Assembly (NCBI RefSeq): GCF_029868625.1
Contig: NZ_JARWOJ010000095.1
Coordinates: forward strand, 1 to 40,955
DNA from: Nocardia neocaledoniensis
GTDB taxonomy: Bacteria > Actinomycetota > Actinomycetes > Mycobacteriales > Mycobacteriaceae
Direction: 5' to 3'
Length of the DNA: 40,955 nucleotides
A model generated the notes under the pieces. That model worked only from the letters and a program-made list of their open reading frames with translations. It ran no database searches and had not been told where the DNA came from. A program made the translations under genes and the position numbers. Of the stretch, positions 20,998 to 22,134 are shown in pieces; the first letter of the stretch is position 1, and the number at the start of each line of letters is the position of its first letter.

Positions 20998-22134
20998 CTA
21001 CACGTCGTCGGTGCCCTCGACCCGCCAGCGGGTGAGAACGGCGCGTACACACGGTGTTTCGGCGAGCGCGTCCACCGTGTCGGCGAAGGCGGAGTCGGGG
21101 GCGCGGTGGGTGAGGATGATCAGATGGGCGTCGGGGCCGTGGTGCTCCTGGCGCACCCGGGCGATGCTCACGGCATGGGCGGCGAAGGTCGCGGCGACCT
21201 GGGCCAGGGCGCCCGCGTGGTCGGTCACCGCGAGGTTCAGGTAGTAGCGGGTGGGGGTGTCGCCGAGCGGGGCGAGGGGGAGTTCGGCGTAGTAGGAGGC
21301 GCGCGGGGCGCGGCCGCCGTGCACCCGGTTGCGCGCCGCCGTGATCAGATCACCGAGCAGTGCCGAGGCGGTCGCCGCGGGGGTTGCGGTGCCGTAGAAC
21401 ATCAGCCTGCCCGCGGCCGCCGCGTCGACGGCCACCGCACCGTACGGCGCCGCCACCCCGGCCAGCGGGTCGGTGGCGGGCAGCAGCGCCGGATGGACCC
21501 GGACCGAGATCTGTTCCTTGCCACCCGCTTCGGGCTGCTCCACCACGCGTGCGCACACCACCAGGGTGCGCAGGCGCAGGCCGAGCGCCTCGGCGACGGC
21601 GCGGTCGTAGCCGGGCGCGGGGCCGGGATCCTCGACGTACACGTCGCCGACCTCGACCCTGGTATGGAAGGCCAGGGTCGCCAGGATCGCCGCCTGCTCG
21701 GCCGTGCCGCGCCCGGGTTCGCCGGGGAAGACGCCGAGCACCTGGTGCACCCGGTCGCCCGCGAGTGACTGGGTGAGCGGCCGCACCACCGGGACCCCGC
21801 CCGCCACCGCCGCTTCGAAACACAGGTCGGCGCCGTACTGTTCGGCCGCGGCGGCCAGCCGGGGACCGTGTTCGGCGATCAGCGCGGTGTTCGCGGTGAT
21901 CACCGACCGGCCCTGCCGGAGTGCGTCGAGCACCGCGGTCACCGATCCCGCGTCCGAGGTCGCGTCGACCACCAACTCCGGCTCTCCGTCGACCGTGAGC
22001 TCCGCTCCGGCGCGTTCGCGCAGGTCACCCCCGGACTCCCGGAGAATGCGCACGACCTCTTCGGCGAGCGCGCCCGCGCCGAGGACGGTGACCCCGAGTG
22101 CGGGCCGCGGGGAACGAGAGAGCTGATGGGTCAT
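20998..22134 (-). CDS. Homoserine-dehydrogenase-like protein with ACT domain, catalytic residues lost
   Basis: The 378-residue protein aligns with actinobacterial homoserine dehydrogenase throughout: the N-terminal nucleotide fold (GVTVLGAGALAEEVVRIL), SVITAN, CFEAAVAGGVPVVRPLTQSLAGDRV, then AAILATLAFHTRV, RLMFYG and ASALLGDLITAARNR. A C-terminal ACT domain (~297-372: TRYYLNLAVTDHAGALAQVA) follows. The canonical catalytic elements are missing. The Lys of TANK is Thr83. The GTTN loop and ~45 residues with the Glu/Asp positions are deleted between VLG and AAIL. The DA-x-x-K Lys is Gln147. I infer a pseudoenzyme, perhaps an amino-acid sensor or regulator. Divergent from the aspartokinase gene at 22337. 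Confidence 0.85.
   Translation of the reverse strand: MTHQLSRSPRPALGVTVLGAGALAEEVVRILRESGGDLRERAGAELTVDGEPELVVDATSDAGSVTAVLDALRQGRSVITANTALIAEHGPRLAAAAEQYGADLCFEAAVAGGVPVVRPLTQSLAGDRVHQVLGVFPGEPGRGTAEQAAILATLAFHTRVEVGDVYVEDPGPAPGYDRAVAEALGLRLRTLVVCARVVEQPEAGGKEQISVRVHPALLPATDPLAGVAAPYGAVAVDAAAAGRLMFYGTATPAATASALLGDLITAARNRVHGGRAPRASYYAELPLAPLGDTPTRYYLNLAVTDHAGALAQVAATFAAHAVSIARVRQEHHGPDAHLIILTHRAPDSAFADTVDALAETPCVRAVLTRWRVEGTDDV

Follow-up and report, generated by a model that had tools for sequence, protein, structure and literature searches.

The window analysed here, positions 1 to 40,955 of contig NZ_JARWOJ010000095.1 of Nocardia neocaledoniensis, carries the gene hom2, whose product is built like a homoserine dehydrogenase but lacks both catalytic lysines and two segments of the enzyme. 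It lies back to back with ask2, a second aspartokinase gene in which the internal start of the beta subunit has been lost. We tentatively favour, at somewhat less than an even chance, the explanation that Hom2 is a non-catalytic, amino-acid-binding regulatory partner of the divergently encoded Ask2, kept under purifying selection in related Nocardia. If true, a dead homoserine dehydrogenase would serve as a regulator, linked to an aspartokinase without the internal beta start that is kept in 47 comparison genes. The locus would then represent a natural experiment on rewired lysine/threonine/methionine feedback after gene duplication, with four ask2 genomes devoid of hom2 as built-in comparisons.

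A homoserine dehydrogenase paralogue without catalytic residues

The following features of hom2 are referred to below.

20998..22134, minus strand: hom2, pseudo-homoserine-dehydrogenase of 378 amino acids; clean open reading frame (ORF); 13 of the genus's 150 genomes contain a match at E <= 1e-80
21987..21988, minus strand: junction of deletion 1, after residue 49; 28 residues (Hom1 48-75, Rossmann domain), placed to within a few residues
21886..21888, minus strand: Thr83, replacing the TANK lysine (Hom1 Lys110); T in 21/26 and A in 5/26 members
21726..21727, minus strand: junction of deletion 2, after residue 136; 34 residues (Hom1 164-197, catalytic stretch)
21694..21696, minus strand: Gln147, replacing the DAAAK lysine (Hom1 Lys210); Q in 24/26 and A in 2/26 members
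21343..21708, minus strand: remnant of the Homoserine_dh domain, profile positions 65-173 of 173 only
21058..21246, minus strand: ACT domain with D305, G308, L310, A311, A314, V322, S323, I324, V327, and Q329; positions after PMC10791936

Hom2 scored 66.6 bits against PF00742 (cut-off 22.9) and 261.1 bits against the NCBIfam homoserine dehydrogenase model NF004976 (cut-off 205). Three domains exceeded the Pfam cut-off, namely part of NAD_binding_3 (residues 50-107), Homoserine_dh (143-264), and ACT (297-359), and no added domain was found by Pfam. The predicted structure likewise has the homoserine dehydrogenase fold. The genome (7.24 Mb in 432 contigs) contains one further Homoserine_dh match, the full-length canonical hom1 on contig C294 (L001, 446 amino acids), to which Hom2 is 45% identical across its whole length. 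On that contig, hom1 sits between two frames that are presumably lysA-like and thrC-like. Hom2 and Hom1 are paralogues within this genome.

Hom2 and 25 close database relatives (together 26 members) were aligned with eight canonical proteins, and the catalytic residues Lys110, Asp201, and Lys210 and the GTTN loop were placed on Hom1 by spacing, a mapping of our own. The span from the Asn of VNGTTNF through Ala196 of GYAEAD is deleted in 26/26 members; in Hom2, the 34 residues lost here and two more near Hom1 202-203 amount to approximately 36. An Asp is aligned at Hom1 Asp201 in four and at Asp206 in five of the 26 members, in a gap-ridden stretch that makes this placement unsure. Around Hom1 48-75, 25-28 residues of the Rossmann segment are gone in 24/26 members, 20 in P0022, and 16 in P0026. 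The third glycine of GxGxxG is Ala24 in Hom2 and is retained in a single member. Across the alignment, Hom2 displays neither the catalytic and homoserine-binding residues of a homoserine dehydrogenase nor a complete NADP-binding Rossmann domain. From these residues we infer that Hom2 has no dehydrogenase activity.

These results largely agree with the initial annotation of the window. It had described hom2 as a clear homoserine dehydrogenase homologue including the ACT domain, with an intact frame, in which the TANK lysine is Thr83 and the DA-x-x-K lysine Gln147; identity, profile matches, the clean ORF, and the alignment bear out each of these points. It had also proposed an in-frame deletion of the GTTN loop of about 45 residues. 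The deletion was recovered, at the smaller size given above. The interpretation had been made to depend on the catalytic residues not being merely shifted and on the genome having another homoserine dehydrogenase: neither lysine is shifted in the 26-member alignment, and full-length Hom is encoded on contig C294. The second deletion, of 28 residues in the NADP-binding domain, had been overlooked.

At the other end of the protein, the ACT positions tied to threonine response or to the tetramer interface are retained and are the same as in Hom1. The homoserine dehydrogenase of Corynebacterium glutamicum is a tetramer with a predicted threonine site in the interface (PMC10791936). This ACT evidence suggests that Hom2 may sense threonine or a related aspartate-family amino acid.

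Conservation of hom2

In addition to being present in 13 of the 150 genomes (13 of the 147 of good quality), hom2 is unbroken in all 13 carriers, each of which also has a canonical hom. In the protein database, 8000 candidates were scored, and the best 120 of 3739 matches included 25 further Hom2 members of 369-397 residues, the named ones all from Nocardia. Between these and canonical Hom proteins (at least 435 residues), the E-value stepped from 8.8e-129 to 1.5e-91. Where a source gives a member of the family a name, it is homoserine dehydrogenase, hypothetical protein, or ACT domain-containing protein, and because of such names metabolic models of these Nocardia may count a second dehydrogenase that is not expected to function. 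Six peptide patterns derived from one Hom2 protein identified four hom2 loci in named genomes, all Nocardia and not added to the 13 carriers, and two Hoyosella loci at 42%. The scope of the named-genome and database searches leaves room for dead Hom proteins in other lineages. The plasmid collection gave no sign of hom2: 25 records matched (20 of them listed), all below 60% identity, the best at 41.6%.

The ratio of nonsynonymous to synonymous substitution rates (dN/dS) of hom2 was below 1 in 78/78 pairs of the 13 genomes, with a range of 0.095-0.416 and a median of 0.293. In ten pairs in which three genes were determined, it was 0.095-0.357 for hom2, 0.014-0.090 for ask2, and 0-0.134 for hom1. 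By domain, four pairs gave 0.25-0.79 for residues 1-65, 0.09-0.25 for 66-140, 0.10-0.20 for 141-290, and 0.105-0.153 for ACT; the cofactor end of Hom2 drifts while the ACT end is constrained. Neither the broken frame nor the neutral evolution of a pseudogene was found, and the earlier view that hom2 is maintained is strengthened by a conserved family, intact frames, and purifying selection in every pair. That hom2 is a decaying pseudogene, still open by chance, is hardly credible and already largely refuted: it evolves faster than hom1 and ask2, its N-terminal domain is relaxed, and it was apparently lost in one lineage (G045/G087/G130, see below), but frames are intact in 13 genomes and 25 further database proteins, dN/dS stays below 0.42 in 78/78 pairs, and the ACT positions and the upstream box are conserved.

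In a quick tree of 61 rows without bootstrap, hom2 formed one clade (25 rows; Shimodaira-Hasegawa approximate likelihood-ratio test, SH-aLRT, 100) whose stem was very long, at 1.12 changes per column, and Hom1 of the ten carriers included grouped together with Hom1 of genome G072 (support 92). We considered whether a second full-length Hom in genome G165 (L102) might be a surviving ancestor of hom2; on its long branch, it is placed at an unresolved fork, and we make no such claim. This full-profile Hom is located about 9 kb from one of two ask1-type aspartokinases (C1:5611986-5622636; L102, L114, L120) and represents a separate pathway duplication.

The divergent aspartokinase gene ask2

The features of ask2 and of the shared intergenic region are as follows.

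22337..23593, plus strand: ask2, second aspartokinase of 418 amino acids; Pfam AA_kinase and ACT, NF005153 at 739.4 bits (cut-off 585)
23069..23086, plus strand: lost internal start of the beta subunit in ask2; residue 250 is encoded by GCC, with no GGAG/GAGG/AGGA stretch preceding
23231..23254, plus strand: S301 loop, NTGTGRTD, shortened by three residues relative to Ask1; in 16/17 ask2
22135..22336, no strand: intergenic region of the divergent pair, 202 bp here
22205..22210, minus strand: hom2-side promoter-like -10 box GATACT (AGTATC on the plus strand), a putative promoter element; invariant in 13/13 carriers
22278..22283, plus strand: ask2-side promoter-like -10 box GATACT, a putative promoter element; invariant in 13/13 carriers; of the four hom2-less genomes, G045, G087, and G130 have it and G072 does not
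22322..22331, plus strand: ribosome-binding-like stretch of ask2, GGGAGAGGAC; invariant in 13/13 carriers

In all 13 carriers, ask2 adjoins hom2 on the opposite strand with a gap of 192-209 bp, so that the divergent aspartokinase neighbour proposed initially is indeed a conserved one. The start common to the 13 genes is the ATG at 22337, not the ORF start at 22133. Ask2 has the kinase and ACT domains of an actinobacterial alpha2beta2 aspartokinase, is 84% identical to Ask1, the other aspartokinase of the genome, and belongs to one clade (17 rows, SH-aLRT 99) among the Nocardia aspartokinases.

The beta chain of actinobacterial aspartokinase is made from an internal start within lysC. In PDB entries, the LysC beta chain starts at the equivalent of residue 250 of the C. 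glutamicum aspartokinase (Ask2 query 251-418 corresponds to residues 2-172 of 2dtj). Codon 250 is ATG, GTG, or TTG and is preceded by a GGAG/GAGG/AGGA-type stretch in 20/20 Nocardia ask1 and 27/27 genes from other genera; these 47 comparison genes were the best-scoring ones with a given locus, not chosen at random, and include near-identical ones. In the window's genome, Ask1 retains both the internal ribosome site and the start codon. In 17/17 ask2, codon 250 is GCC, GCA, CCC, or ACG, and no such stretch precedes it. An ATG at residue 245 is retained in 16 of the 17, and an alternative start there is possible, but no GGAG-type stretch is seen in the preceding 15 bases of the genes inspected for it. 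Glu246 (window 23072-23074) occurs in 20/20 Nocardia ask1 and 25/27 others, and is Ala in 16 and Thr in one of the 17 ask2; its near-invariance is likely due to its codon carrying the internal ribosome site. Aspartokinase of this type is an alpha2beta2 assembly (PMC8690038), with a lysine site between alpha and beta (PMC4691045).

Several regulatory positions of Ask2 also differ. Besides the shortened S301 loop, I375 and S379, invariant in 20/20 ask1, are altered in 17/17 ask2; in other genera I375 is retained in 26/27 and S379 in 21/27. Position 301 is Phe in 3ab4 vs Ser in 3aaw, and we take 3ab4 to be a feedback-resistant mutant. PMC10464499 tabulates I375 among the C. glutamicum aspartokinase substitutions assayed for lysine deregulation. 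Since Q298, T311, T361, and S381 are unchanged in 17/17 ask2, the feedback of Ask2 may be altered rather than lost.

Two Ask2 matches at E <= 1e-100 were found in 19 of the 150 genomes. We left out G165, with its two ask1-type genes, and G132, with two fragments of which the loop-bearing one is ask1-type, and retained 17 ask2 genomes, 13 with hom2 and four without (G045, G087, G130, and G072). Thus, hom2 occurs in 13/17 ask2 genomes vs 0/133 others, and no genome among the 150 has hom2 without ask2. G045, G087, and G130 still have the ask2-side box together with approximately 50-65 bp preceding it and the sequence between box and start codon, but not the hom2-side box, a pattern that reads as loss of hom2 after the pair had formed. 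In G072, ask2 directly follows der, with unrelated upstream DNA and neither box. The hom2-side box was not found within 215 bp before ask2 in any of the four, and no still-catalytic hom2 was found at their ask2 loci, PF00742 identifying a single full-profile hom in each genome. As a side observation, genome G164 (9.1 Mb, completeness 100) gave no aspartokinase match at E <= 1e-30, by an assembly gap or a real absence; 149/150 genomes have one at E <= 1e-100.

The alignment of the intergenic region (247 columns, including 12 coding bases at each end) had GGGAGAGGAC, GGATACTCG, and CAGTATC as its longest invariant runs, and the two GATACT boxes form a mirror pair, one per gene. A sigma-70 promoter and terminator scan of 20950-23700 found none (0.1 and 0.5 expected), so that the -10-like boxes rest on conservation, and neither a riboswitch nor a leader was matched in Rfam up to E 1 over 20300-24000. 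A palindrome, CCGAA-ACGA-TTCGG (22215-22228), lies between both boxes and is a possible operator; both arms also occur upstream of ask2 in the hom2-less G087 and G130, not in G045. Beside ask2, the window encodes an alpha/beta hydrolase (23649-24503, plus strand) and a GNAT acetyltransferase (24496-25308, minus strand). The acetyltransferase is present in 9/9 loci compared (eight genomes) and the hydrolase in 7/9. Both were set aside as partners of Hom2; the hydrolase is absent at the N. caishijiensis locus (L050) and in G072 (L128).

Proposed role of Hom2 and comparison with known systems

Amino-acid sensing or control of the aspartokinase, the role suggested initially, is consistent with two sequence features: the ACT residues are retained, and hom2 is paired with an aspartokinase gene without the internal beta start. 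Beyond it, our analysis adds the second deletion, the family-wide conservation, the changes in Ask2, among them the loss of the internal start, and the natural losses of hom2. In the proposed mechanism, hom2 and ask2 would be co-expressed, as suggested by their shared intergenic region. The ACT domains of Hom2 would pair and take threonine or a different member of the aspartate family as ligand, and Hom2 would contact Ask2 and set its feedback response, acting instead of, or besides, a beta subunit of Ask2's own, production of which would have ceased. The lost beta start hints at why Ask2 could benefit from a substitute partner. Entry into the pathway would then be shared by two enzymes, Ask1 under the usual alpha2beta2 control and Ask2 under a separate one. 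A more specific version, in which an aspartokinase of one Nocardia lineage without its own beta adopted a dead dehydrogenase body as threonine-sensing subunit, so that the aspartokinase-homoserine dehydrogenase assembly was re-formed for a purely regulatory purpose, appears unlikely to us.

A number of points weigh against regulation of Ask2 by Hom2. Ask2 might borrow the beta chain of Ask1, and with Q298, T311, T361, and S381 kept, its feedback may even be normal. Ask2 persists in 4/17 genomes without hom2, so Hom2 is not an obligatory subunit of it everywhere, and the internal start is lost in these four as well, independently of the presence of hom2. The Ask2 branches of three hom2-less genomes (0.016, 0.025, and 0.041) are close in length to the one of G121 (0.017), a related carrier; the longest, 0.51, belongs to hom2-less G072. 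The Ask2 of G154 retains S301 despite the presence of hom2, and S379 also varies in other genera (S in 21/27). The dN/dS of hom2 is about 3-11 times that of ask2 (ten pairs) and 1.4-4.6 times that of hom1 (nine pairs; hom1 dN is 0 in the tenth). The genome counts reflect few evolutionary events rather than independent ones, and Fisher values calculated from them assume independence and do not represent probabilities. The predicted structure of Ask2 is poor, with a mean predicted local distance difference test score of 50.6 from an alignment of 23 near-identical sequences, and was used for no claim. Finally, the ACT interface residues kept in Hom2 match those of Hom1 and would fit pairing with Hom1 equally well.

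This last point leads to the strongest rival, that Hom2 regulates Hom1 rather than Ask2 by joining Hom1 tetramers via the ACT interface and altering their threonine response, its adjacency to ask2 reflecting co-regulation only. Hom1 is present in 13/13 carriers, the ACT interface residues are the same in both proteins, the corresponding tetramer interface of C. glutamicum holds the predicted threonine site (PMC10791936), and there are known cases of a dead paralogue pairing with its live parent (PMC5201418 and PMC3663545). A Hom-type match occurs in 40/40 relatives, yet hom2 is found only with ask2 (13/17 vs 0/133) and always adjoining it, and we regard this explanation as rather unlikely. Hom2 could also be a stand-alone sensor or have an unrelated function, for example binding a metabolite or another protein, with the adjacency to ask2 due to shared regulation of aspartate-family demand. 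The retention of ACT and of the predicted fold, the lack of an added Pfam domain, and the existence of ask2 genomes without hom2 are consistent with such a role; its conserved neighbour, however, is a same-pathway enzyme with altered regulatory sites, which makes it quite improbable. That Hom2 still catalyses some other reaction at a remodelled active site, as the core FEAAVAGGVPVVRPLTQSL, nearly invariant in Hom2 members and common to canonical Hom, might indicate, is very unlikely, as the NADP-binding segment is wholly or partly lost in 26/26 members and the third glycine of GxGxxG in 25/26.

Regulation of Ask2 by Hom2, the explanation we prefer, has partial parallels elsewhere. Judged by titles and the openings of abstracts, a literature search found no paper on a pseudoenzyme homoserine dehydrogenase, most subscription papers being beyond its reach. 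With the ACT-domain homoserine dehydrogenases (actinobacterial Hom/ThrA; PDB 6dzs), Hom2 shares the predicted fold, the ACT domain, the threonine and tetramer-interface positions, 45% identity to Hom1, and the NF004976 match, but it lacks the two catalytic lysines as well as the GTTN/GYAEAD stretch and, in the NADP domain, 28 residues. Bifunctional aspartokinase-homoserine dehydrogenases couple the same two bodies in one chain, whereas here two separate divergent genes are 202 bp apart and the dehydrogenase body is without catalytic residues. LysC beta (PDB 2dtj, 3aaw, 3s1t) is, like Hom2 in its proposed role, a non-catalytic ACT-domain partner of aspartokinase; it arises from an internal lysC start, which ask2 has lost, and Hom2 resembles it by the ACT domain only.

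Judged by sequence, hom2 is a dead paralogue kept together with the live enzyme in the same genome, as are regulatory paralogues of the HisZ and prozyme kind. The trypanosomatid prozymes of AdoMet decarboxylase and deoxyhypusine synthase are also dead paralogues kept as regulators (PMC5201418 and PMC3663545). These, however, pair with their own parent enzyme, while the conserved neighbour of Hom2 is a different enzyme of the pathway. By analogy, the closest working analogue of Hom2 is HisZ, the regulatory subunit of short-form ATP phosphoribosyltransferase, whose parent is histidyl-tRNA synthetase. According to PMC9734150, HisZ has no catalytic power, holds an end-product pocket, and controls the first enzyme of its pathway. 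It differs from Hom2 in being a tRNA synthetase paralogue of an unrelated family, whereas the ancestry of Hom2 lies in a same-pathway enzyme, and a complex of Hom2 with Ask2 is putative.
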